DNA of 64,000 bases from Siphonodentalium dalli (taxonomy: Eukaryota; Mollusca; Scaphopoda; Gadilida; Siphonodentaliidae): the NCBI GenBank assembly GCA_032622095.1, contig CP136068.1:53376443-53440442 (forward strand), in the 5' to 3' direction. Shown here one piece after another: positions 1 through 57,735 of the stretch; within the stretch, counting starts at the first letter, position 1; each line of letters begins with the position of its first letter. Below the pieces are notes generated by a model, which ran no database searches, was not told the DNA's origin, and saw only the letters and a program-made list of their open reading frames with translations. Both the position numbers and the translations under genes were made by a program.

Positions 1-407
1 GGTTATTTGTATGCAGCTCAGTTATGAGACATTGGACAAGTATTTTATCCATATAATATATTTCTATATGGCCCGGCTCCAAATGAAGCCACCGTTTCGG
101 GGGACACTGCGGCTGAGCGGCCTTTTGTTTAAATTATTATCTGAACATCCCTAAATATGAAAGAATAGGACCCCATAGGAAGTTTATCTTTCATTTACGA
201 TATATTCCTAGCAAACAAAAAGAAAGGCCTATTGCAATTTAACTTTCAGAATAGAATGTTATCAACCTCAAAGTCCCAATTAGCAAACAGAACGTTTTTT
301 GTTTAACCATTTCTTTACTAAATACTCATTGACAATAGCTCCTTTTAGAGTCCTTTAGGAAATATTCAGATAAGAAGTTCAACAAACAACAAAAGATTAT
401 TTGTACT
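1..407. repeat. Intronic sequence with MITE fragments
   Basis: No coding exon is visible. About 125-245 and 304-395 match fragments of the repeat family seen more fully at 26237-26482, sharing the wording 'tttctttactaaatactc' and the 'cagataagaagttcaacaa' motif. About 80-128 resembles a fragment also present at 24000-24048. If the GALNT gene begins upstream of the window, this is intron. Confidence 0.45.
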
Positions 408-836
408 AATGGTATCCAGAATGTACTTTATATATCTAACAACCTGAATTAATGGTATCCAGAATGTACTTTATATATCTAACAACCTGTATTAATGGTA
501 TCCAGAATGTACTCATACATTGTACATCTAACAACCTGAATTAATGGTATCCAGAATGTACTTCATATATCTAACAACCTGAATTAATGGTATCCAGAAT
601 ATACTTCATATATCTAACAACCTGTATTAATGGTATCCAGAATGTACTTCATACATTGTGTATCTAACAACCTGAATTAATGTTATCCAGAATGTACTTC
701 ATATATCTAACAACCTGAATTAATGGTATCCAGAATGTACTTCATATGGTATATCTAACAACCTGTATTAATGGTATCCAGAATGTACTTCATATGGTAT
801 ATCTAACAACCTGTATTAATGGTATCCAGATTGTAA
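408..836. repeat. Tandem repeat, 43/49-bp units, about 10 copies
   Basis: The motif 'aatggtatccagaatgtac' recurs at 408, 451, 494, 543, 586 and onward. Spacing is 43 or about 49 bp because some units carry an extra short insert (catacattgtg or atggt). Copies are very similar, so the array is young. It lies about 110 bp upstream of the first visible GALNT exon. Confidence 0.9.
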
Positions 837-942
837 CAAAAGCAAACTATTGCTAGCTTCAGTTGAAGACTTGAAGATTATATACATGTATTTCTTGTTA
901 ACCTCCAGAATCATGAGTCACATGCATGTTTCAAATTCTTAG

Positions 943-1146
943 GTTAGAACCACTCTTGTCTCGAATAAAGCAAGATAGAACAGCTGTACTTTGTCCAGAA
1001 ATTGATATGATAGACAAGATGGACCTGCGCTATGCCGGCACGGGGAGTTATTCTGTGGGAGGCTTCTGGTGGAGTCTTCATTTCTCCTGGCGACCGATGC
1101 CAGAACACGAGAGAGCTCGTCGACGATCCTCTACAGATCCTATTAG
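943..1146 (+). CDS. GALNT: GALNT catalytic-domain exon, version A (alternative exon)
   Basis: Polypeptide GalNAc-transferases start mucin-type O-glycosylation in the Golgi by moving GalNAc from UDP-GalNAc to Ser/Thr. This 204-nt exon encodes LEPLLSRIKQDRTAVLCPEI, then GGFWWSLHFSW, then MPEHERARRR, ending DPI plus a split codon. That is the segment directly after the DxH metal motif in the family. The acceptor is cttag at 938-942 and the donor is GTAACT at 1147. The first base completes a codon that in the family is Trp (GW-LEPLL), so the DxH exon lies upstream of the window. About 39 of 69 residues match the next exon, which encodes the same segment with identical length and phase. The sequence resembles GALNT11-type enzymes most (GGFxWSLHF), but the subfamily is not certain. 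Confidence 0.9.
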
Positions 1147-1205
1147 GTAACTGTTTGTCATGAATAAAAATATTCACATACCCTGTTTACCATTTGAATC
1201 TGCAG
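1147..1205 (+). promoter_or_regulatory. 59-bp spacer between alternative exons
   Basis: This short gap begins with GTAACT and ends with a pyrimidine-rich tract and TGCAG. At 59 bp, including both splice signals, any branch point would sit within about 40 nt of the 5' splice site. Such spacing usually blocks assembly of both splice-site complexes at once. The spacer itself is therefore the likely device that prevents exons A and B being joined to each other. This is inferred from spacing alone. Confidence 0.6.
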
Positions 1206-1409
1206 GCTGGAGCCTCTTCTAGCAAGGATCAAAGAAGACAGAACATCAGTATTATGTCCAATCGTTGATCTAATTCATGATGTAAATTTGGGATACTCAT
1301 TGAATGGAGGTTATCAGCCTGGCGGGTTCTCATGGAGTTTACATTTTACATGGGAGGAAGTTCCTGAACGTGAAAAACGTAGGCGTACGAAAACCACAGA
1401 GCCTCTGAG
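1206..1409 (+). CDS. GALNT: GALNT catalytic-domain exon, version B (alternative exon)
   Basis: This second version of the preceding exon has exactly the same length (204 nt) and the same split-codon phase at both ends. It encodes LEPLLARIKEDRTSVLCPIV, then GGFSWSLHFTW, then VPEREKRRR, ending EPL plus a split codon. The acceptor is ctgcag at 1205 and the donor is GTAAAT at 1410. The backbone residues (LEPLL, RIK, DRT, VLCP, GGF, WSLHF) are shared with version A. The stretch around the GG-F turn and the basic tail differ: YSLNGGYQP here against YAGTGSYSV, and TWEEV against SWRPM. In the family this segment packs near the sugar-nucleotide and acceptor site, so the two versions could differ in substrate preference. 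Confidence 0.9.
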
Positions 1410-2312
1410 GTAAATTGTCAAAATGTTCCATAGAAAATATATTACTGTCAACATGTTCACATAATATTCAGAACATTACTCTTATTCTGGCATAAAGCTT
1501 CAAAGAGTTATTCCAGGTTTCTGACCTGACACCAGAACACGATAAAAGGAAACAATTACTCAATTTGTACCTACATGACCGAACATGCAAAACTGACAAG
1601 AAAGTTATGCATGTACGCGTTTCAAACCATGAAAACACTAATCTGAGACACCTGCAGCTCTGTTCATCGTTTTGCGTATTCTACCACCCCAAGAATGTTA
1701 GTTAATACATGGAGAAGAAAGTAGCCTAATGTGTACTATTTTAATTGATGTGTATATTTGCATGGATGAAAACTATTGACAATTATTGGTTGCTACTTTA
1801 TATGTAATCTACCTTTCTGCATATTTCATGGACTTTGACTCCGTGACAATGAACACATGCTTAATGCTTTATAACACATATATAACAGGACCTGGGGGAT
1901 CTCGATGTGATATTTTGTGTAACGCATACAAAACAGAATAACAACGATGTCAGGATAGGAGTTGGAAACATTATGTTATAATATGTTACATATAAACACA
2001 CTAGTTTAATAATAGACAAAATATTAATAACACGTGTTTCCGATTGGTTGACCTGAAAACTCCAGGTAGCTAGGTACATGTATGTCGGCGTTTTCATAGA
2101 TATATACTGCTAGCATAAAGTGTGTTGATTTTATAGCATAACTACCAGTATCTGAGCGTCATTCTTGTAACGGAAATGTAATTGTATTATATAATTTGGC
2201 AGAAATACAAATTGCACACTAAACATGTGAACATGGCGAATTTACATTCGAGATGAAAGTGAAAAATAAAGTAAGATTCTGGGATCCTATGAGGTAGCTC
2301 TGTATGATTACA
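1410..2312. other. Intron; possible relic of a third exon copy
   Basis: No clear exon is present. A stop-free stretch of about 67 codons runs from about 1494 to 1702 and includes a segment reading SDLTPEHDKRKQ (about 1516-1555). This recalls the PEHERARRR/PEREKRRR part of exons A and B, but the LEPLL and GGF blocks are missing. The rest is AT-rich and unrecognised. Confidence 0.35.
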
Positions 2313-2637
2313 AAATATTACAGAAAATAGGTCCCGTTTAAATCACTGTTTAATTGTTTTATAATCACATGATTACGCTATATTACAGAAAATAAGTCCC
2401 GTATAAATCACTGTTTAATTGTTTTATAATCACAATGATTACGCTATATTACATAAAATAGGTCCCGTATAAATCACTGTTTAATTGTTTTATAATCACA
2501 ATGATTACGCTATATTACAGAAAATAGGTCCCGTATAAATCACTGTTTAATTGTTTTATAATCACATGATTACGCTATATTACAGAAAATAGGTCCCGTA
2601 TAAATCACTGTTTAATTGTTTTATAATCACAATGATA
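2313..2637. repeat. Tandem repeat, 65/66-bp units, 5 copies
   Basis: The motif gtcccgt.taaatcactg recurs at 2331, 2396, 2462, 2528 and 2593. Units differ by only a few bases and by one optional A in tcaca(a)tgatt. The array lies in the GALNT intron after the alternative exons. Confidence 0.92.
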
Positions 2638-3996
2638 TTTGTTCTTGAATAAAACAACGCTAATGTGTGAAATATTGACGTATATTTATGAATTTTTAGT
2701 CCGCTGTTCCTAACTTATTTGACCAACTTGAAATTACAGGAGGACCTCAACCAAATGAGGTGCTCTTACTAAAAAAAAACAACGAAACTATGACCAGTTT
2801 CTTAATAAACTAATACATTTTATAAGCCAACAAGAAGATAAAAAAAAACGCTGTTAAATAACAAAATATCTGGCGTCATATTGTTCAAGGCACGTTTTCG
2901 TTTTGTTTATGACCATCTACACCATGTTATATTTCGTTGGCGGTTATCTCAGCTCCGTTTAGTTGCGTTGATGGTTACACCGACCACGTTATATTGAGTT
3001 GATGGTTACCTCAACTGCGTTGAAAATTACAACCGCATTGGAGTAACATTACAACCGCGTTGTGTTAACACTAAAACCGCTTTGATGGTCATTTTTCAAC
3101 GCGGTCTCACAGCGGTTCCAACGCAGTCAAGAGGGACACTTATTTTGAGAATATGTACTGTATACGTAATATATATGAAATGACTGGATGATCGATCGGG
3201 TAATTGGAATTTGACTGGCATAGTAATTAAACAAAGTGTGTGAATCCCAAAACATTGTTTAATTACTCTGCCGGTCAAAACTAGTGACCCCAATCGATAT
3301 TCCAGTCATTCCTTATAATCATATACCAGTACATTGTAATAGAACATTGATAACATAAACAACTTTTCAAAACTACCAAAACAATTATAAGTAACCTATT
3401 AAATAAATTCCAACACAGTCTCCCAATAACAACATGCAGCGAGTGCGTGCACATGATCTGATTGAAGTGACGCACATGTAGGTGGTTCATCGCTTTTATG
3501 CAGTGGAAGCTGCGGTTATTGCTTGATAAACGATTTGTACTGAATCTTACCATTTCTAATTGTGTGAATGTAGAGGTTGTGTGATTATATATAAATGTTT
3601 GATAGAATATGATTGTGATGAGACAAGAACAACAACATGAATCTATTCTTAGCTGCAATGTCAGAATATAAGGAAGTAGTGTCTTGTAGATCAGCTAATT
3701 CTATGAATTGTTGAGTTGGCATTGTTTGAAATTTCGGCAAATCAGTCAAAACAAAATATTTTACTGTCAATTATATGCATAGCAAAGCCATATAAAAAGC
3801 ATCATTACTCAAAATCATTCTTGGAAATAAAAAGAAGAATAGTCTGCAACCAAGTTGCCAAAGATACGTTCTAATGATGAACGCCTACATGTACAATGCC
3901 TAGTGAACTCTTTCTAATAAAAAATAACCCATTTTTAGGTTGCTGATAAATGGCTGGTTTTGACTCTTTGCATTAATAACCTATCACTTTTTTTAG
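2638..3996. other. Intron without recognised gene
   Basis: At 2930-3125 there is a loose cluster of short motifs of the type accgcgttg / tgatggttac, a degenerate low-copy repeat. The open stretches on the minus strand (3281-3770) have no recognisable protein features and lie in AT-rich DNA, so they are not called as genes. Confidence 0.5.
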
Positions 3997-4114
3997 ATCA
4001 CCTACAATGGCTGGAGGACTTTTTGCTGCTGATAGGAAATTTTTCTTTGAAATCGGTGCTTATGATAATGGGATGGAGGTGTGGGGAGGAGAAAATCTCG
4101 AAATTTCTTTCAGA
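3997..4114 (+). CDS. GALNT: GALNT exon with Gal/GalNAc-T motif
   Basis: The exon encodes [20 protein letters not shown] followed by [21 protein letters not shown]....VWGGENLE is the conserved Gal/GalNAc-transferase motif of this family (Asp, Trp-Gly-Gly-Glu-Asn and final Glu all present), so the catalytic domain looks intact. The acceptor tttttag ends at 3996, and the first base A completes the AG left by exon A or B to give Arg. The donor is GTGAGT at 4115. The exon leaves phase 0, matching the next exon. Confidence 0.95.
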
Positions 4115-7082: not shown

Positions 7083-7170
7083 ACTTGGATGTGTGGTGGA
7101 AAATTAGAATTCATTCCTTGCTCAAGAGTCGGCCATATATTCAGGTCCAGCCATCCATATACATTTCCAG
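7083..7170 (+). CDS. GALNT: GALNT exon with metal-binding His
   Basis: The exon encodes [20 protein letters not shown] followed by RSSHPYTFP and a split Gly. The [11 protein letters not shown] block is a family signature, and its His is a Mn2+ ligand in the solved enzymes. The acceptor cttctctttcag ends at 7082 and the donor is GTAAAA at 7171. At 88 nt it enters at phase 0 and leaves one base, which pairs with the two bases opening the next exon. Confidence 0.95.
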
Positions 7171-8690: not shown

Positions 8691-8724
8691 GCTAGCAAGC
8701 ATTAATCACATATCTGGCTTTCAG

Positions 8725-8822
8725 GTCATAAGGATACTCATGGTTTGAATTCTATGAGGCTGGCTGAAGTCTGGATGGATGGATACAAGAGATTGTACTA
8801 CAGCCACAGACGGGACTTGCTG
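8725..8822 (+). CDS. GALNT: GALNT exon preceding the minisatellite
   Basis: The exon encodes GHKDTHGLNSMRLAEVWMDG followed by YKRLYYSHRRDLL. The conserved RLAEVWMD.YK block is the end of the catalytic domain. The acceptor ggctttcag ends at 8724. The donor is CTG|GTAAGA at 8823, and this junction is also the first unit boundary of the 35-bp minisatellite. Reading through the donor adds about 14 residues before a TAA located at the second repeat's splice-site copy, so missplicing would truncate the protein before the lectin domain. Confidence 0.95.
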
Positions 8823-11800
8823 GTAAGATTAGATACCATGAGGGCCCCGGCCATGGATGGCTGGTAAGATTAGATACCGTGAGGGCCATGGATGGCTGGT
8901 AAGATTAGATACCGTGAGGGCCATGCTTGGCTGGTAAGATTAGATACCGTGAGGGCAATGGATGGCTGGTAAGATTAGATACCATGAAGGCCCCCGGCCA
9001 TGGATGGCTGGTAAGATTAGATACCGTGAGGGCCATGGATGGCTGGTAAGATTAGATACTGTGAGGGCCATGATTGGCTGATAAGATTAGATACCGTGAG
9101 GGCCATGGATGGCTGGTAAGATTAGATACCCTGAGGGCCATGGATGGCTTGTAAGATTCGATACCGTGAGGGCCATGGATGGCTGGTAAGATTAGATACC
9201 GTGAGGGCCATGGATGGCTGGTAAGATTAGATACCGTGAGGGCCATGATTGGCTGGTAAGATTATATACCGTGAGGGCTATGCTTGGCTGGTAAGATTAG
9301 ATACCGTGAGGGCCATGCTTGGCTGGTAAGATTAGATACCGTGAGGGCCATGGATGGCTGGTAAGATTAGATACTGTGAGGGCCATGGATGACTGGTAAG
9401 ATTAGATACTGTGAGGGCCATGGATGGCTGGTAAGATTAGATACCGTGAGGGCCATGGATGGCTGGTAAGATTAGATACTGTGAGGGCCATGGATGGCTG
9501 GTAAGATTAGATACCGTGAGGGCCATGGATGGCTGGTAAGATTAGATACTGTGAGGGCCATGGATGGCTTGTAAGATTAGATACTGTGAGGGCCATGGAT
9601 GGCTGGTAAGATTAGATACCGTGAGGGCCATGATTGGCTGGTAAGATTAGATATCGTGAAGGCCATGGATGGCTGGTAAGATTATATACCTTGAGGGCCA
9701 TGATTGGCTGGTAAGATTAGATATCGTGAAGGCCATGGATGGCAGGTAAGATTAGATACCGTGAGGGCCATGATTGGCTAGTAAGATTAGATACCGTGAG
9801 GGCCATGGATGGCTTGTAAGATTAGATACTGTGAGGGCCATGGATGGCTGGTAAGATTAGATACCGTGAGGGCCATGGATGGCTTGTAAGATTAGATACC
9901 GTGAGGGCCATGGATGGCTGGTAAGATTAGATACTGTGAGGGCCATGGATGGCTGGTAAGATTAGATACCGTGAGGGCCATGGATGGCTGGTAAGATTAG
10001 ATATCGTGAAGGCCATGGATGGCTGGTAAGATTATATACCTTGAGGGCCATGGATGGCTGGTAAGATTAGATACCGTGAGGGCCATGGATGGCTGGTAAG
10101 ATTAGATACCGTGAGGGCCATGGATGGCTGGTAAGATTAGATACTGTGAGGGCCATGGATGGCTGGTAAGATTAGATACTGTGAGGGCCATGGATGGCTG
10201 GTAAGATTAGATACCGTGAGGGCCATGGATGGCTGGTAAGATTATATACCGTGAGGGCCATGGATGGCTGGTAAGATTAGATACTGTGAGGGCCATGGAT
10301 GGCTGGTAAGATTAGATACTGTGAGGGCCATGGATGGCTTGTAAGATTAGATACCGTGAGGGCAATGGATGGCTGGTAAGATTAGATACCATGAAGGCCC
10401 CCGGCCATGGATGGCTGGTAAGATTAGATACCGTGAGGGCCATGGATGGCTGGTAAGATTAGATACTGTGAGGGCCATGATTGGCTGATAAGATTAGATA
10501 CCGTGAGGGCCATGGATGGCTGGTAAGATTAGATACCCTGAGGGCCATGGATGGCTTGTGAGATTCGATACCGTGAGGGCCATGGATGGCTGGTAAGATT
10601 AGATACCGTGAGGGCCATGGATGGCTGGTAAGATTAGATACCGTGAGGGCCATGATTGGCTGGTAAGATTATATACCGTGAGGGCTATGCTTGGCTGGTA
10701 AGATTAGATACCGTGAGGGCCATGCTTGGCTGGTAAGATTAGATACCGTGAGGGCCATGGATGGCTGGTAAGATTAGATACCGTGAGGGCCATGGATGGC
10801 TGGTAAGATTAGATACTGTGAGGGCCATGGATGGCTGGTAAGATTAGATACTGTGAGGGCCATGGATGGCTGGTCAGATTAGATACCGTGAGGGCCATGG
10901 ATGGCTGGTAAGATTAGATACTGTGAGGGCCATGGATGGCTGGTAAGATTAGATACCGTGAGGGCCATGGATGGCTGGTAAGATTAGATACTGTGAGGGC
11001 CATGGATGGCTTGTAAGATTAGATACTGTGAGGGCCATGGATGGCTGGTAAGATTAGATACCGTGAGGGCCATGATTGGCTGGTAAGATTAGATATCGTG
11101 AAGGCCATGGATGGCTGGTAAGATTATATACCTTGAGGGCCATGATTGGCTGGTAAGATTAGATATCGTGAAGGCCATGGATGGCTGGTAAGATTAGATA
11201 CCGTGAGGGCCATGGATGGCTGGTAAGATTAGATACCGTGAGGGCCATGGATGGCTGGTAAGATTAGATACCGTGAGGGCCATGGATGGCTTGTAAGATT
11301 AGATACCGTGAGGGCCATGGATGGCTGGTAAGATTAGATACCGTGAGGGCCATGGATGGCTGGTAAGATTAGATACCGTGAGGGCCATGGATGGCTGGTA
11401 AGATTAGATATCGTGAAGGCCATGGATGGCTGGTAAGATTAGATACCGTGAGGGCCATGGATGGCTGGTAAGATTAGATACTGTGAGGGCCATGGATGGC
11501 TGGTAAGATTAGATACCGTGAGGGCCATGGATGGCTGGTAAGATTAGATACCATGAAGGCCCCCGGCCATGGATGGCTGGTAAGATTAGATACCGTGAGG
11601 GCCATGGATGGCTTGTAAGATTAGATACCGTGAGGGCCATGGATGGCTGGTAAGATTAGATACTGTGAGGGCCATGGATGGCTGGTAAGATTAGATACCG
11701 TGAGGGCCATGGATGGCTTGTAAGATTAGATACCGTGAGGGCCATGGATGGCTGGTAAGATTAGATACTGTGAGGGCCATGGATGGCTGGTAAGATTAGA

Positions 11801-14448
11801 TACCGTGAGGGCCATGGATGGCTGGTAAGATTAGATATCGTGAAGGCCATGGATGGCTGGTAAGATTAGATACCGTGAGGGCCATGGATGGCTGGTAAGA
11901 TTATATACCGTGAGGGCCATGGATGGCTGGTAAGATTAGATACCGTGAGGGCCATGGATGGCTTGTAAGATTAGATACTGTGAGGGCCATGGATGGCTGG
12001 TAAGATTAGATACCGTGAGAGCCATGGATGGCTGGTAAGATTAGATACTGTGATTGCCATGGATGGCTGGTAAGATTATATACCTTGAGGGCCATGGATG
12101 GCTGGTAAGATTAGATACCGTGAGGGCCATGGATGGCTGGTAAGATTAGATACTGTGAGGGCCATGGATGGCTGGTAGGATTAGATACTGTGAGGGCCAT
12201 GGATGGCTGGTAAGATTAGATACCGTGAGGGCCATGGATGGCTGGTAAGATTATATACCGTGAGGGCCATGGATGGCTGGTAAGATTAGATACTGTGAGG
12301 GCCATGGATGGCTGGTAAGATTAGATACTGTGAGGGCCATGGATGGCTGGTAAGATTAGATACCGTGAGGCACATGATTAGCTGGTAAGATTAGATACCG
12401 TGAGGGCCATGGATGGCTGGTAAGATTAGATACCGTGAGGGCCATGGATGGCTGGTAAGATTAGATACTGTGAGGGCCATGGATGGCTGGTAAGATTAGA
12501 TACCGTGAGAGCCATGGATGGCTGGTAAGATTAGATACTGTGAGGGCCATGGATGGCTGGTAAGATTAGATACCGTGAGGGCCATGGATGGCTGGTAAGA
12601 TTAGATACCGTGAGGGCCATGGATGGCTGGTAAGATTAGATACTGTGAGGGCCATGGATGGCTGGTAAGATTAGATACCGTGAGGGCCATGGATGGCTGG
12701 TAAGATTAGATACTGTGAGGGCCATGGATGGCTGGTAAGATTAGATACCGTGAGGGCCATGGATGGCTGGTAAGATTAGATACCGTGAGGGCCATGGATG
12801 GCTGGTAAGATTAGATACCGTGAGGGCCATGGATGGCTGGTAAGATTAGATACTGTGAGGGCCATGGATGGCTGGTAAGATTAGATACCGTGAGGGCCAT
12901 GGATGGCTGGTAAGATTAGATACCGTGAGGGCCATGGATGGCTGGTAAGATTAGATACCGTGAAGGCCATGGATGGCTGGTAAGATTAGATACTGTGAGG
13001 GCCATGGATGGCTGGTAAGATTAGATACTGTGAGGGCCATGGATGGCTGGTAAGATTAGATACCGTGAGAGCCATGGATGGCTGGTAAGATTAGATACTG
13101 TGATTGCCATGGATGGCTGGTAAGATTATATACCTTGAGGGCCATGGATGGCTGGTAAGATTAGATACCGTGAGGGCCATGGATGGCTGGTAAGATTAGA
13201 TACTGTGAGGGCCATGGATGGCTGGTAGGATTAGATACCGTGAGGGCCATGGATGGCTGGTAAGATTAGATACTGTGAGGGCCATGGATGGCTGGTAAGA
13301 TTAGATACTGTGAGGGCCATGGATGGCTGGTAAGATTAGATACCGTGAGGGCCATGGATGGCTGGTAAGATTATATACCGTGAGGGCCATGGATGGCTGG
13401 TAAGATTAGATACTGTGAGGGCCATGGATGGCTGGTAAGATTAGATACTGTGAGGGCCATGGATGGCTGGTAAGATTAGATACCGTGAGGGCCATGATTA
13501 GCTGGTAAGATTAGATACCGTGAGGGCCATGGATGGCTGGTAAGATTAGATACCGTGAGGGCCATGGATGGCTGGTAAGATTAGATACTGTGAGGGCCAT
13601 GGATGGCTGGTAAGATTAGATACCGTGAGAGCCATGGATGGCTGGTAAGATTAGATACTGTGAGGGCCATGGATGGCTGGTAAGATTAGATACCGTGAGG
13701 GCCATGGATGGCTGGTAAGATTAGATACCGTGAGGGCCATGGATTGCTGGTAAGATTAGATACTGTGAGGGCCATGGATGGCTGGTAAGATTAGATACCG
13801 TGAGGGCCATGGATGGCTGGTAAGATTAGATACTGTGAGGGCCATGGATGGCTGGTAAGATTAGATACCGTGAGGGCCATGGATGGCTGGTAAGATTAGA
13901 TACCGTGAGGGCCATGGATGGCTGGTAAGATTAGATACCGTGAGGGCCATGGATGGCTGGTAAGATTAGATACTGTGAGGGCCATGGATGGCTGGTAAGA
14001 TTAGATACCGTGAGGGCCATGGATGGCTGGTAAGATTAGATACCGTGAGGGCCATGGATGGCTGGTAAGATTAGATACCGTGAGGGCCATGGATGGCTGG
14101 TAAGATTAGATACTGTGAGGGCCATGGATGGCTGGTAAGATTAGATACCGTGAGAGCCATGGATGGCTGGTAAGATTAGATACTGTGAGGGCCATGGATG
14201 GCTGGTAAGATTAGATACCGTGAGGGCCATGGATGGCTGGTAAGATTAGATACCGTGAGGGCCATGGATGGCTGGTAAGATTAGATACTGTGAGGGCCAT
14301 GGATGGCTGGTAAGATTAGATACTGTGAGGGCCATGGATGGCTGGTAAGATTAGATACCGTGAGAGCCATGGATGGCTGGTAAGATTAGATACTGTGAGG
14401 GCCATGGATGGCTGGTAAGATTAGATACCGTGAGGGCCATGGATGGCT
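8823..14448. repeat. 35-bp minisatellite, about 160 copies, seeded at a 5' splice site
   Basis: The unit is ggtaagattagataccgtga followed by gggccatggatggct, repeated over 5.6 kb of a 6.04-kb intron. Nearly every unit carries GCTG|GTAAGATTA, identical to the real donor of the upstream exon. Exceptions include a 41-bp first unit and 42-bp units at about 8965, 10372 and 11534 (atgaaggcccccggcc). Larger blocks are themselves repeated: variant units recur 1407 bp apart (9078 and 10485) and 1050 bp apart (12051 and 13101; 12171 and 13221). The commonest substitution is C to T at the only CpG of the unit. Minus-strand open frames at 9052-9246 and 10459-10653 are by-products of the repeat, not genes. 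Confidence 0.97.
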
Positions 14449-14860
14449 GCATGGATTTTTTCGGGACACCTGTTTTCTGACCATGATATGCTGAAGGCAT
14501 ATCCCAAAGGGTTACGGCCTGAGTTTGGGCGGATATGGGAGGTGTACCTCTCCCATTGACAAGGGGTTTGGGTTCTCACCCAAGATAATTTTTGAAAATG
14601 ATATGCATTGAGAGAGAGAGTCTAAGGCTCTCTCAGCCTCTCTGACTCACTATTTTGGAGAGAGAGTTAGGACAGTTTATTAAAATTAACTTTTGAAATT
14701 CAAATAGATATAGGCCTACATGTATGTATTGTAAATGGGGTTGATACTATCTATGCATGGGTATGGGTATGGGTATCAAAATTGCTTGATACTATCTATG
14801 CATGGGTATGGGTATGGGTATCAAAATTGCTTCCAGTCTCATTAATTAATTTATTTTTAG
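14449..14860. other. Remaining intron with a 2-copy direct repeat
   Basis: Holds a gagagaga-rich patch (14610-14665) and two adjacent copies of a roughly 45-bp segment (ttgatactatctatgcatgg plus three gggtat steps, then tcaaaattgc) at about 14740-14830. It ends in the pyrimidine tract and TTTTTAG of the next exon. Confidence 0.7.
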
Positions 14861-14995
14861 GGCCAAGATTATGGTGATATATCAGAACGGAAGGCTCTGA
14901 GGCAGAGACTCAATTGTAAAAGCTTCAGATGGTATTTGGAGAATGTTTATCCTGAAAAGTTCATTCCAGATGAAAACGTCCATTCCTGGGGCATG
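14861..14995 (+). CDS. GALNT: GALNT exon linking catalytic and lectin domains
   Basis: The exon encodes [40 protein letters not shown] and HSWGM. The pattern [21 protein letters not shown] is diagnostic for GALNTs and marks the linker to the C-terminal lectin domain. Acceptor tatttttag ends at 14860; donor GTGAGT at 14996. It is 135 nt in phase 0. This exon lies directly downstream of the minisatellite intron. Confidence 0.95.
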
Positions 14996-15610: not shown

Positions 15611-15718
15611 CTCCGCAATCCGACCAGTAATATATGCCTGGACACGCTACAGAAAGATGAGAAGATGATATTTGACATTGGTTTGTTTGGCTGTCAGAAT
15701 GGCGCCAGTGCTGGACAG
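15611..15718 (+). CDS. GALNT: GALNT lectin exon (alpha repeat)
   Basis: The exon encodes LRNPTSNICLDTLQKDEKMI and FDIGLFGCQNGASAGQ. CLD followed by a GC.N...GQ stretch is the alpha repeat of the ricin-B-type lectin domain, which binds GalNAc already present on the substrate and directs further glycosylation. The CLD Asp is present. Acceptor ccttgcag ends at 15610; donor GTGTGT at 15719. 108 nt, phase 0. Confidence 0.93.
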
Positions 15719-16243: not shown

Positions 16244-16375
16244 GTTTTCTCCTTGAGCATGAATGATGAGCTGCGACGAGAAGATGGATGTTTAGCAGCT
16301 AATGGCAAAGACAATGAACGTCTCAAGCTGTCACCATGCACTGGCACCAAATTCCAGAAGTTTAAGCATGATAAA
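16244..16375 (+). CDS. GALNT: GALNT lectin exon (beta repeat)
   Basis: The exon encodes VFSLSMNDELRREDGCLAAN, GKDNERLKLSPCTGTKFQKF and KHDK. It supplies the second lectin repeat, but the usual CLD reads CLA and the QxW-like position reads FQKF, so this subdomain has probably lost sugar binding and serves a structural role. Acceptor tattcag ends at 16243; donor GTAAGT at 16376. 132 nt, phase 0. Confidence 0.92.
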
Positions 16376-17689: not shown

Positions 17690-19624
17690 ATGAAAGTGTC
17701 AATGACACTGTAGCTCAACTTAGGTAGGGGAATAATTTAATGGTTGACAGTAAATGGAGGAATAGGAAAGATGCTAATTGAAATGTCTAACCTAGCTGTG
17801 CCAAAGGATTTAGTCATGCAAAGAGTAAAATCCAAGATGGCTGCTGACGGCCATGTTTTTTGGCCGAATGACCCCAAAATGACTCGTTCCCATCTACATG
17901 TCAATATTACCATTCATGACAAATTTCATGATGATCAGACGAATAGTACGACCTTTCGCCCGTGCCAATGAATTTAATTTTGAAATCCAAGATGGCCACC
18001 AACGGCCATGTTTTTTGGCCGAATGGCCCCAAAATAACTCGTTCCCATTTACATGTCAAGGTCAACAGCCATGACAAATCTCATAATGATCTGACCAAAG
18101 GTACGACATGTAGCCTGTGCCAAAGGATTTAGTCATGCAAAGAGTAAAATCCAAGATGACTGCTGGCGGCCATGTTATTTGGCCGAACGATGCCAAAATG
18201 ACTCGTTCCCATCTACATGTCATTGTTAACATCCATGACAAATTTCATGAAGTTCCGACCAAAGCTACGACCTGTAGCTCGCGCCAAAGGATTTAGTCAT
18301 GCAAAAAGTAAAATCCAAGATGGCTGCTGGCGGCCATGTTTTTCGGCCGGACAACCCCAAAATGACTCGTTCCAATCTACATGTCATTGTTAACATCCAT
18401 GACAAATTTCATGCAGTTCCGACCAAAGTTACGACCTGTAGCCCGCGCCAAAGGATTTAGTCATGCAAAGAGTAAAATCCAAGATGGCTGCTGGCGGCCA
18501 TGTTTTTCGGCCGAACAACCCCAAAATGACTCGTTCCAATCTAAATGTCATTGTTAACATCCATGACAAATTTCATGAAGTTCCGACCAAAGCTACGACC
18601 TGTAGCCCGCGCCAAAGGATTTAGTCATGCAAAGAGTAAAATCCAAGATGGCTGCTGGTGGCCATGTTTTTCGGCCGAACAACCCCAAAATGACTCGTTC
18701 CCATCTACAGGTCATTGTTAACATCCATGACAAACTTCATGAAGTTCTGACCTAAGCTACGACCTGTAGCCCGCACCAAAGGATTTAGTCATGTAAAGAG
18801 TAAAATCCAAGAGGGCTGCTGGCAGCCATGTTTTTTGGCCAAACAAGCCCAAAATCACTCGTTCCCATCAACATGTCAATATTAACATCCATGACAAATT
18901 TCATGATGATCAGACGAACAGCACGACCTCTAGCCCGCGCCAATGGATTGAATTTTGAAATCCAAGATGTCCGAATGACCCTAAAATGACTCGTTTCCAT
19001 CTACATTCCAATTTCAACAGCCATGACAAATTTTATGATGATCAGACTAAAGGTACGACCTGTAGCCCGTGCTAAAGGATTTAGTCATACAAAGAGTAAA
19101 ATCCAAGATGGCTGCTGGCCGAATGACCCCAAAATGACTCGTTCCCATCTACATGTCATTGTTAACATCCATGACAAATTTCATGAAGATCCGACTAAAG
19201 CTACGACCTGCAGCCCGCGCCAAAGAATTTAGTCATGCGAAGAGTAAAATCCAAAATGGCTCCTGGCGGCCATGTTTTTTTACAGAACGACCCCAAAATG
19301 ACTCGTTTCCCATCTACATGTCAATATTAACATCCATGACAAATCTCATGATGATCAGACGAACGGTATGACCTGTAGACCACCGCGCCAATGGATTTAA
19401 TTTTGAAATCCAAGATGGCCACCAGCGGCCATGTTCTTTGGCCGAATGACCCCAAAATGACTCGTTCCCATCTACAAGTCAATGTCAACATTCATGACAT
19501 ATTTCATAATGATCAGACCAAAGGTACGACCTGTAGCCCACGCCAAAGGAAATTGTTGATGGACACACGGACGACGGACGCCAACCCACGGCAATAGCTC
19601 AAACTTACAAAGTAAGTTGAGCTA
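17690..19624 (+). mobile_element. Tandem-repeat-containing MITE, copy 1
   Basis: Bounded by inverted ends tagctcaactta (17711) and taagttgagcta (19607-19618), with the left flank aatgaaagtgtcaatgacac. The interior is about 11 copies of a ~160-bp unit with the phrases ggatttagtcatgcaaagag, aagatggctgctggcggcca, aaaatgactcgttcccatct and catgacaaatttcatgatga. The right end has cacacggacgacggacg then gcaatagctcaaac. Non-autonomous elements with central ~160-bp repeats are described from bivalves. Relatives in this window are at 44450, 51582 and 56440. The open frames inside (17744-17971, 19023-19597) are shadows of the repeat. Confidence 0.82.
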
Positions 19625-19792: not shown

Positions 19793-19933
19793 AAAACAGG
19801 TCAAGTGGTGCATGAGAGCAGCGGCAAATGTCTGGACAGTCCAATACCGAAAAACAGTGAATATGCCGTCATAAACCCATGTAACAACAAACCATCACAG
19901 TTCTGGGCGTTTGAACACTATCTAAACAGCTAA
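19793..19933 (+). CDS. GALNT: GALNT last exon (gamma lectin repeat, stop codon)
   Basis: The exon encodes KTGQVVHESSGKCLDSPIPK, NSEYAVINPCNNKPSQFWAF and EHYLNS, then TAA. KCLD and QFW are the CLD and QxW motifs of the third lectin repeat, both intact, so alpha and gamma are the likely sugar-binding repeats. Acceptor tttatttacag ends at 19792. The lectin domain ends within a few residues of the usual family C-terminus, so the gene looks complete at this end. Confidence 0.94.
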   Translation, partial: KTGQVVHESSGKCLDSPIPKNSEYAVINPCNNKPSQFWAFEHYLNS

Positions 19934-29480: not shown

Positions 29481-29789
29481 TTCCACTTGAATGATTTACA
29501 ATTCAACGTGGAGATATCAATCTGTTGATAAACTTGGAAGAGGTGACCAAGGCAAGGACTCAAGAGTGGAATCCTGAAACATGACCGCCTACACCAAATG
29601 GCACAAGAACGTTTGTGGCGCATTGGAAAACGGCCAGGTCACTCACTATATATAGCCCATTACCATTAGTTGTACACCGTAGAAAATTATCTGTAAAGCT
29701 TGAAATGTCCTAAGTTTTTTACTTTTTATTTTACTTTTCATGCACAAACTTGTCATTTGTATTTTACTGGTTTTGTTTCTATGACCCTG

Positions 29790-30592
29790 ATCTATTGCCT
29801 GTCCAACTTTTGAAATTTGATGGAAGTGATGGATTTACTGTTAATTTTTATAAATATTTTTGGAAAGACTTGGGGCAATATTTGATAAATTCATTAAATT
29901 ACAGTCAATTATCACAAGAAATGTCAACCACACAAAGATGTGGAATAATAACTTGCATTCCAAAACCTAATAAAAATAAACTCCTTTTGAAAAATTGGAG
30001 ACCTATTACACTTTTAAATGTAGATGCTAAAATAGCATCAACAGTTATTGCTAACTGCATAAAAAAGTACCTACCAGAACTTATATCTAGTTCACAACTT
30101 GGATTTATGTCAGGGCGCTATATTGAAGAGTCAACTAGACTCAACTTTGACTTGATAGAGAAGTGTGAAAAAAATCAGATTTCGGGCATACTTGCAACTC
30201 TTGACTTCGAAAAGGCATTTGACTCGTTGGAATGGAGTTTTATTCAGAAAAGCTTAATTTTCTTTGGATTTGGCCCTTTATTGAGAAACTGGGTAAAAAC
30301 TTTCTACAACAATATATATAGTTATGTCATTAATAATGGGAATATAACAAATAAAATCGACATTAATAGAGGAGTAAGACAAGGCGACCCACTATCACCT
30401 TACCTCTTTATCCTATGCGCGGAAATACTTAGTGCCAATATTAAATTTAACCCAGAGATAAAAGGTATACAAATAAAAGGATCAGAATACACTGTAACCC
30501 AATATGCAGATGACTTAAACCTCTTCCTCCAGGATGATCAGAAATCCCTCGATACAGCATTAAATACTTTTGAAGTTTTTGCAGCCATCTGA
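29790..30592 (+). pseudogene. L1/Tx1-type LINE reverse transcriptase (5' truncated)
   Basis: A continuous frame encodes a non-LTR reverse transcriptase: NWRPITLLNVDAKIAS (fingers), QLGFMSGRYIEESTR, TLDFEKAFDSLEW (motif A, catalytic Asp), GVRQGDPLSPYLFIL (motif B) and QYADDLNLFLQD (motif C with the two catalytic Asp). The upstream part reads LKFDGSDGFTVNFYKYFW, so the endonuclease domain is missing, as in most 5'-truncated LINE copies. The frame stops at FAAI-TGA at 30590 and continues in another frame. Confidence 0.9.
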
Positions 30593-31694
30593 GTGATCAG
30601 ACCTAAAAATCAATTATGACAAAACACAAGCCATATGGATAGGTGCAAAACGGGGTTGTGTTGAGGAAATTATTACGGATAAAAAAATAATATGGAACCA
30701 TAACCAATCTATTACAATCCTTGGAATTGAATATAATCTATTCAGTGAGAATTATATAGAAAATAACTATCACAAAAAGATACAAAAAATAGATAATTTA
30801 TTGAACGATTGGTCATTCAGAAACCTTAGCCTATATGGTAAGACAACTGTTGTAAAGACACTGGCCTTGCCTATGTTAACACACTGTTTCTCAGTTCTAC
30901 CTTCACCCTCTCAAGAGGTGTCTGAAAAATTAAAAAAAGTTATTTTCAAATTTTTATGGTCAGGAAAGCCAGACAAAATTAAAAGAAATGTAATGATAAA
31001 CAACTGGGAAAATGGGGGAATTTTATTCCCCCACATTGACTCATTTTTATAAAGCATTAAAGATGACTTGGATTAAAAAAGTTTTAGACCCACAGACAGA
31101 AGCTGGTTGGAAAACATTACTGGTAGATGATCTAGAAACTTTCGGTGGCCACAAAATATGGAACCTTCATAAAGAAGGGCTTAAGATATTGAGTAACACA
31201 CTATCCATTCTGGAAGGATGTGATAAATGAATGGTCCAGTTTGGATAAAAATATTACCATAACCCCAGAAGATGAGATATTAAAAGAACCGCTATATTAT
31301 AATCAAAACATATTGGTGAATCAAAAAATGTTCTTTAATAAAACATGGATTAAAAAAGGCATATACATTTTAAACGATCTTATTGAAGAAAACTCAGGGC
31401 TACTGGAATACGAGAGTTTCTGTAAAAAATATGATATAAAAACTCCCTTCACCACCTATAATTGGTTACTTGCAGCATTACCAGCTTCCTGGAAGCAATA
31501 TTCTATCCAATATTCTTAGAGCAATACTCTAAACCCCCAGATATATCTAAAAAAAATGGGAAGACAGATTAGAAATAAAGTTCACGATAGATGAATGGAA
31601 AAGAAACTACACAAAAACTAGTAAAATTACAAATGACACAGATCTATTGTCTTTTCAGTTTAAAATAAATCATAACATTTTATATACTAACACA
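30593..31694 (+). pseudogene. LINE ORF2 C-terminal part, frameshifted
   Basis: Follows the reverse transcriptase in shifted frames. About 30605-31050 reads LKINYDKTQAIWIGAK then LLNDWSFRNLSLYGKTTVVK and FKFLWSGKPDKIKRNV, the thumb and connector region typical of L1/Tx1 ORF2. About 31030-31228 and 31220-31519 carry the C-terminal part (KALKMTWIKKVLDP; MINEWSSLDKNIT; TTYNWLLAALPASWKQY). A further short part ends SFQFKINHNILYTNT at 31694, exactly where the palindrome element begins. At least three frameshifts are present, so it is inactive. Confidence 0.85.
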
Positions 31695-56439: not shown

Positions 56440-57735
56440 ACATGAAAGTGTCAATTACCTTGTAAAGAAGGTAATTTTTTTGTGATGAGCAATGAATAGA
56501 GAGATTAAAAAGGAGTGTAAAAAATGAGCAGTAAAGGATTTAGTCACACACAGAGTAAAATCCATGATGGCTGCTGGCGGCCATGTTTTTTGGCCGAATG
56601 ACCCCAAAATGACTCGTTCCCATCTACATGTTATTGTTAACATCCATGACAAATTTTATGATGATCAGACTAAAGGTACGACCTTTAGCCTGTACTAAAG
56701 GAATTAGTCATACAAAGAGTAAAATCCAAGATGGCTGCTGGCGGCCATTTTTTTGGCCGCTTGACCCCAAAATTAATCGTTCCCATCTACATGTCAATAT
56801 TAACATCCATGACAAATTTCATGATGATCAGACGAACAGTACGACCTGTAGCCCGTGCTAATGCATTGAATTTTGAAATCCAAGATGGCTGCTGGTGGCC
56901 ATGTTTTTTGTCCGAATGACCCCAAAATGACTTGTTCCCATCTACATTCCAATTTCAACAGCCATGATAAATTTCATGATGATCAGACTAAAGGTACGAC
57001 CTGTAGCTCGTGCTAAAGGATTTAGTCATACAAAGAGTAAAATCCAAGATGGCTGCTGGCGGCCATGTTTTTTGGCCGAATGACCCCAAAATGACTCGTT
57101 TCCATCTACATGTCAATATTAACATCCACGACAAATTTTATGATGATCAGACTAAAGGTATGACCTGTAGCCCGCGCTAAAGGATTTAGTCATACAAAGA
57201 GTAAAATCCAAGATGGCTGCTGGCAGCCATGTTTTTTGTTCGAATGAACCCAAAATTACTCGTTCCCATCTACATGTCATTATTAACATCCATGACAAAT
57301 TTTATGATGATCCGACCAAAGGTACACCTGTAGCCCGTGTTAAAGGATTTAGTCATGCAAAGAGTAAAATCCAAGATGGCTGCTGGCGGCCATGTTTTTT
57401 GGCCGAATGACGACAAAATTACTCGTTCCCATCTACATGTCAATATTAACATCCATGACAAATTTCATGACGATCAGTACGGCCTGTAGCCCGTGGTAAT
57501 GGATTGAATTTTGAAATCCAAGATGGCCACTGGTGGCCATGTTTTTTTTCCGAATGACCCCAAAATGAATCATTTCGGTCTAAATGTTGATGTAAACAGC
57601 TATGACAAATTTCATAATGATCCGATCAAAGGTACGATCTGTAGCCTGTATTGTTGACGCATCACGTAGACATGCACACACGGACGACAAAGCCATGGCA
57701 ATAGCTCAAACTTTACAAAGTAAAGTTGAGCTAAT
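56440..57735 (+). mobile_element. Tandem-repeat-containing MITE, copy 4
   Basis: Left flank tgaaagtgtcaattacc; interior about 7 units with ggatttagtcatacaaagag, aagatggctgctggcggcca and aaaatgactcgttcccatct; right end cacacggacgacaaagccat then ggcaatagctcaaactttac and aaagttgagctaa. The right end matches copy 1 closely. Open frames inside (56628-57410) are repeat shadows. Confidence 0.8.

Follow-up and report, generated by a model that had tools for sequence, protein, structure and literature searches.

Does a single polypeptide GalNAc-transferase (GALNT) gene make two enzymes with different acceptor preferences by exchanging an exon inside its catalytic domain? The acceptor specificity of GALNTs is usually viewed as being spread over many genes, and the known splice switch lies in the lectin part of the protein. 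The question is raised by two neighbouring exons of the scaphopod Siphonodentalium dalli, which lie near the start of the window (the whole stretch of DNA that was analysed, 64,000 nucleotides). A slash marks exon borders here and below.

943..1146, plus strand: exon A (FWW version), 204 nt, phase TG/G ... AG/A
1147..1205, plus strand: spacer between exons A and B, 59 nt, with branch-point-like sites TTCAC and TTTAC
1206..1409, plus strand: exon B (FSW version), 204 nt, phases as in exon A

One GALNT catalytic-domain exon is present in two diverged versions, A and B, and the swapped segment corresponds to residues 233 to 300 of GALNT2. The original prediction, made from the letters of the window, described two 204-nt exons in the same phases with about 39 of 69 residues alike and a 59-bp spacer between them, and this description is accurate: 38 of 68 residues are identical, or 39 of 69 with the junction Arg that both have. 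Both exons begin with the last base of a Trp codon (TG/G), finish AG/A and are open along their full length, with intact and canonical AG/GT borders. At the level of bases 113 of 204 are identical, while identity at codon positions 1, 2 and 3 is 36, 55 and 22 of 68, respectively; third positions are thus near random while second positions have been kept, which points to two long-separated coding copies under selection on the protein. With exon A as the query, tblastn matched exon B at E 2e-24 and gave no third exon copy in the 64-kb window, nor is there one in the 9.2-kb intron before A. An A-like stretch near 1530, hinted at by eye, is not the best local alignment in the downstream intron, where the best alignments lie elsewhere and are at chance level (scores of 31 and 33, equalled by 36 and 60 of 300 shuffles). 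The 91 mismatches in 204 bases and the recurrence of each version in other molluscs rule out an assembly artefact.

The splice sites had also been called good. The canonical borders bear this out, but the donors (TAG/GTAACT for exon A and GAG/GTAAAT for exon B) both lack the G at +5 that is present in five of the six other donors of the gene within the window, so the description is slightly generous. A 43-bp array (407-835) stops some 110 bp short of exon A, and the intron after exon B contains a 66-bp array (2304-2636).

The host gene is a molluscan GALNT whose database relatives are mostly named 'probable N-acetylgalactosaminyltransferase 9'. Its start lies outside the window; a search of the window's own assembly (2,226,750,531 bases, nine contigs) placed three upstream coding exons within C8:53359804-53368161. 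The third of these, the DSH exon (C8:53367984-53368161), encodes LDSHCEAGHKW, the DxH metal motif, and its end (...AAATG/GTAAGT) makes it joinable equally to A or B, a Trp codon resulting with either. The intron from the DSH exon to exon A is 9.2 kb long and the later seven introns range from 525 to 6038 nt, against 59 nt between A and B. Downstream of the pair, the gene continues in the window as follows.

3997..4114, plus strand: next exon (SPTMAGG...), whose Trp codon at 4082-4084 corresponds to GALNT2 W331
7083..7170, plus strand: exon (TWMCGG...)
8725..8822, plus strand: exon (HKDTHGLNSMRLAEVWMDGYKRLYYSHRRDLL)
14861..14995, plus strand: exon
15611..15718, plus strand: exon, C-terminal (lectin) part
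16244..16375, plus strand: exon, C-terminal (lectin) part
19793..19933, plus strand: last coding exon, with the stop at 19933

By motif reading, the conceptual protein carries WGGENLE and GHIFR and a C-terminal ricin-type lectin part, and Pfam identifies GT2, Glyco_transf_7C and Ricin_B_lectin in the relatives P0002, P0013 and P0064. On this sequence evidence the product is a putative polypeptide GalNAc-transferase (GALNT, GT27), predicted to transfer GalNAc to Ser/Thr. A genome search with exon B and the downstream exons returned 34 matches; among the best candidates, which were scored, seven loci outside the host gene cover most of the swapped exon and none of them lies beside a second copy. 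Three GALNT-like loci, L002 (C7:151761286), L003 and L004 (C6:55410799 and C6:55534480), are apparently intronless, with open frames of 558 and 595 codons and identical scores for L003 and L004.

Repeats occupy much of the non-coding part of the locus. Most of the intron that follows the 8725-8822 exon is taken up by a 35-bp minisatellite of about 159 units (8849-14449), in which each unit copies the donor site of that exon; CTGGTAAGATTAGATA occurs 131 times and TGGTAAG 142 times in 8701-14500, so that about 140 tandem splice-donor copies lie in one intron. The last intron of the gene holds an array of an approximately 164-bp repeat (17800-19550), and a second array, seemingly of the same family, is found some 37 kb away at 56532-57646. 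Further along the window, a frame with an RVT_1 domain (29714-30592) is followed by an open stretch (30597-31052), and this reverse transcriptase stretch, 29714-31052, is probably a retrotransposon relic.

Database proteins place the pair in a wider setting. The 75 proteins considered (38, 21 and 25 matches) were found via short exact words shared with the query, and the numbers that follow are counts and not frequencies. Exon A alone is present in 25 of the 75 (P0011-P0035), exon B alone in 23 (P0039-P0042 and P0057-P0075) and A followed by B in ten; P0038 is treated below, and the other 16 include a brachiopod, annelids, nematodes, arthropods and fish. A search of related species for the same exon pair had been proposed, and the pair is present in many molluscs, with clams, snails and a chiton besides this scaphopod. 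A scan of viral contigs with P0067 gave no match, as expected. Molluscan A and B isoforms are already among public gene models, and the three Argopecten isoforms, X1 with A, X2 with B and X3 with A+B, have identical flanks (228/228 before and 273/273 after the exon); they are one gene with three models. The A-only and B-only models of this gene uphold the view that A and B are versions of one catalytic exon, available as alternatives. The two versions differ in pace, which counts against the account preferred below. In nine of the ten tandem models (all but P0004), mean identity is 62% for B, 80% for A and 87% for the flanking catalytic sequence; exon B evolves faster than exon A and the flanks. 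Window exon B has GGYQPGGFSWSLHFTWE in common with Mya P0039 and Ruditapes P0075. B segments also vary in length, with 68 residues here, 67 in the other molluscan B segments extracted and 70 in the chiton, so the equal length of A and B is not conserved.

It had further been argued that each transcript should carry one exon or the other, as the spacer is too short for splicing between them. The database models argue against strict exclusion. The ten tandem A+B models, with A first in all ten, come from Pinctada, Argopecten (X3), Littorina, Tegillarca, Batillaria, Magallana gigas, Biomphalaria (X3), Elysia crispata, Physella (X3) and Liolophura (X2), and four of them are isoform-numbered (Argopecten, Biomphalaria and Physella X3, Liolophura X2). 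Isoform-numbered RefSeq models are usually backed by RNA evidence. In addition, P0038 carries A in one frame and, if its codons permit, B in another (score 105, against 60 or less in 40 shuffles), with B about 345 nt after A if the sequence reads unspliced. The spacer sites in the window are 30 and 43 nt from the donor of exon A. A donor-to-branch distance below 50 nt is treated as potential steric interference in the relevant part of a survey of human clusters, where it applies to 57 of 629 (PMC5740500). Given the ten tandem models and the apparent gap of about 345 nt in P0038, however, the short spacer is at best a local device. Among 16 inverted pairs in positions 1-4000, none was judged a convincing RNA docking pair between introns; this comparison was made without a shuffle control.

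The tandem models leave room for a different account, in which the exons are not exclusive: B (or A) would be a cassette exon, and A+B transcripts would be regularly made alongside the other two, giving an enzyme with 68 inserted residues or else an inactive protein that reduces activity. Both lengths are divisible by three and the phases are the same, so an A-B join stays in frame. The short donor-to-branch distance in the window speaks against such joining here, as do the transcript-sized contigs (1.7-2.3 kb, frames of 565-574 aa), in which seven 'lgn' clusters are A-only, one 'lgn' and one 'ena' cluster are B-only, and none of the nine holds both exons, although clustering at 90% could hide some. 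A protein with its core catalytic segment repeated would also be expected to fold poorly. AlphaFold gives the tandem form a mean pLDDT of 21-41 over residues 241-370 (31 rows, low confidence), but it gives the B form no more than 36-54 over residues 241-300 (26 rows, also low confidence), and since the B-only model is poor too, the low value of the tandem model is weak evidence. We consider regular joint inclusion quite unlikely, and we read A and B as alternative exons that are mostly used singly, with joint inclusion possible.

If the pair arose by one old exon duplication within one gene, the exon itself should sort by version and the rest of the protein by animal. An exon tree was built without P0024-P0027, P0045, P0051, P0056, P0059, P0062, P0069 and five identical segments, and also without P0038, from which no segment was obtained. 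In the resulting tree of 71 rows, A lies together on one side of a branch (82/76, 29 rows) and so does B (87/73, 32 rows); neither branch is starred. After removal of seven rows (P0010 B, P0036, P0037, P0043, P0044 and P0049, which are long, and P0010 A), 26 A rows are split from 30 B rows at 98/92, which is starred, with the bootstrap not settled. These seven rows were picked after the 71-row tree had been seen, and window B, P0005 B and P0047, likewise flagged as long, were kept; that the clean split arises only in the reduced tree, from rows chosen post hoc, counts against it. The flank tree, made from the rest of the protein for 44 of the 75 proteins and the window by a quick method with SH-aLRT only, groups most rows by animal family with A and B mixed. 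For example, Mytilus A pairs with Mytilus B (96) and Mercenaria A with Ruditapes B (94). The gene itself marks the window as molluscan, and in this tree the window falls in no starred group. An exon tree split by version and a flank tree split by family match what one old duplication within one gene predicts. As far as these sequences and trees go, the A/B pair is old and falls into two distinct groups, A and B, across molluscs. In the 71-row tree Capitella and Lingula fall weakly with A and Ridgeia weakly with B, which makes an origin before molluscs no more than a possibility. On the A side there are also nematode rows (94/86 in the 71-row tree), most of them with FWW, and the A mark is thus not special to the molluscan pair.

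In some lineages the A and B forms found belong to separate genes. This holds for Gigantopelta, Bradybaena and Candidula, and also between two Haliotis species, with A in Haliotis rufescens and B in H. cracherodii (rows P0019, P0070, P0071; P0018, P0072; P0017, P0074; P0022, P0067), with flanks that are 58-80% identical. The B genes of vetigastropods and Gigantopelta form their own clade in the flank tree (100). The pattern suggests that gene duplicates divided the A and B versions between them. However, the label isoform X2 on one Gigantopelta B form implies that the gene behind it has a further, unseen isoform.

What the swap could do to the enzyme depends on where it falls. According to PMC4432651, the peptide groove of GALNT2 is formed mainly by V255, L270, F280, W282, Y284, F361, H365 and F377, and W282A and F361A almost eliminate activity. 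Five of these eight residues (255, 270, 280, 282 and 284, with the numbering checked) lie in the swapped exon. The proposed closeness to the acceptor site therefore holds. The proposal had also placed the mobile Trp of GALNT2 here, but that residue, W331 (PMC4432651), is encoded by the next exon. The codons of the three groove positions that differ are listed below.

1007..1009, plus strand: position 255 in exon A, Met; in exon B, 1270-1272, Leu
1052..1054, plus strand: position 270 in exon A, Ser; in exon B, 1315-1317, Gln
1094..1096, plus strand: position 284 in exon A, Pro; in exon B, 1357-1359, Glu

The two classes were compared over 56 columns in the 26 A and 30 B rows of the seven-row-reduced set, the window included. 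Eleven columns differ in majority residue between the classes when the majority must cover at least 80% of A and at least 50% of B; position 255, mostly Leu in A (20 rows) and Ala in B (25), falls below this bar. At position 270, 25 of the A rows have Ser and 29 of the B rows Gln or Asn; at position 284, all 26 A rows have Pro, and the 30 B rows have Asp (23 rows), Asn, Ser or Glu. At the 11 columns, window A carries nine class A majority residues (E252, I253, K258, T266, S268, S270, W275, S281 and P284), and window B nine of class B (I252, V253, D258, S264, N266, G268, Q270, S275 and T281), its Glu at position 284 standing where most B forms have Asp.

This retention bears on whether one of the exons might be a decaying duplicate that is spliced in no more in S. 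dalli. The end branch of window B is long (0.54 in the 71-row tree and 0.70 in the reduced tree), and the missing +5 G in both donors would fit as well; yet this lineage evolves fast in the remainder of the gene too (end branch of 0.45 in the flank tree), and each exon retains its open frame, its borders and nine of its 11 class residues. Decay is, in our judgement, very improbable.

A more serious alternative is that the swap leaves acceptor choice as it is and alters level, stability or localisation, or is nearly neutral. The key peptide-binding aromatics are the same in both versions, with Phe at position 280 in 26 A and 29 B rows (55 of 56) and Trp at position 282 in all 56. Against this stand the 11 columns with different majorities, groove positions 270 and 284 among them. 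We give this alternative a minor but real share of belief, and think it likely that the A/B swap alters which residues around the target Ser or Thr the enzyme will accept.

Taken together, the evidence makes it probable that A and B arose by an ancient duplication within one GALNT gene and serve as its alternative exons, mostly included singly and with products that differ in acceptor preference. Splicing would connect the DSH exon, 9.2 kb upstream, with one of the two, and that one with the exon at 3997. The two products would have the N-terminal, DSH, flexible-loop and lectin parts in common; what sets them apart would be the segment equivalent to GALNT2 233-300, which is expected to line part of the acceptor-peptide groove. 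Both exons are presumably used in S. dalli, with inclusion normally single, aided perhaps by a 59-nt gap too short for efficient A-to-B splicing, and the two enzymes would favour different acceptor peptides. One gene thus probably makes two enzymes, which may choose different targets. A broader reading is that a catalytic-groove switch of acceptor specificity by exon swap has been kept since before molluscs split (possibly since before brachiopods, annelids and molluscs split) and that in some lineages (Gigantopelta and Haliotis, land snails) duplicates share out A and B, one gene each; this we hold tentatively and, taken as a whole, lean slightly against.

A conserved exon pair in the catalytic groove would amount to naturally matched A and B enzymes differing at positions 255, 270 and 284, which are known contacts, and at their neighbours, and this would make the determinants of acceptor choice directly testable. 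If the preferred account of alternative exons is true, the molluscan set of O-glycosylation enzymes is larger than a count of genes would imply. A 2019 paper, in the text on Bge-ppGalNAcT of Biomphalaria glabrata, speculates that molluscs have few such enzymes and describes this protein as the only molluscan family member investigated so far (PMC6994419); 'splice' and 'exon' are absent from its main text. Position 258 of GALNT2, to which Met286 of Bge-ppGalNAcT corresponds, is never Met in the 56 A and B rows, so this protein is probably the product of another gene.

Swappable GALNT exons are themselves known. GALNT13, Pgant5 and gly-5 (human, fly and worm) are listed with swappable homologous tandem exons in the material of PMC9741552, so the molluscan pair is a variant of something already on record. 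Section 17 of that paper leaves the duplicated GALNT exon unnamed and presents the events as convergent, and 'galnt' occurs once in its main text. GALNT words are absent from PMC7954323, and among the matches listed in the literature outside preprints and most subscription journals there was no paper on a GALNT catalytic-exon swap. Compared with the mutually exclusive exon clusters set out in PMC5740500, A and B are similarly tandem, homologous and of like length and phase, and the spacer seems to have a comparably short donor-to-branch distance; the models with tandem inclusion in relatives are a point of difference. The closest parallel is Drosophila pgant9, in which a splice switch at exon 8 yields PGANT9A and PGANT9B and alters acceptor choice through the lectin domain (PMC6115407), and the best solved-structure relative of both exon A and exon B is PGANT9 itself (6e4q). 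In both systems one GALNT gene has two splice versions of one exon, the fly pair being tissue-specific and differing in acceptor choice in the results given in PMC6115407. The original prediction was right that the fly switch sits elsewhere: the PGANT9 swap covers about 30 residues in the alpha subunit of the lectin domain and brings a charged loop close to the active site, whereas here about 68 residues of the catalytic domain, part of the peptide groove, are exchanged.
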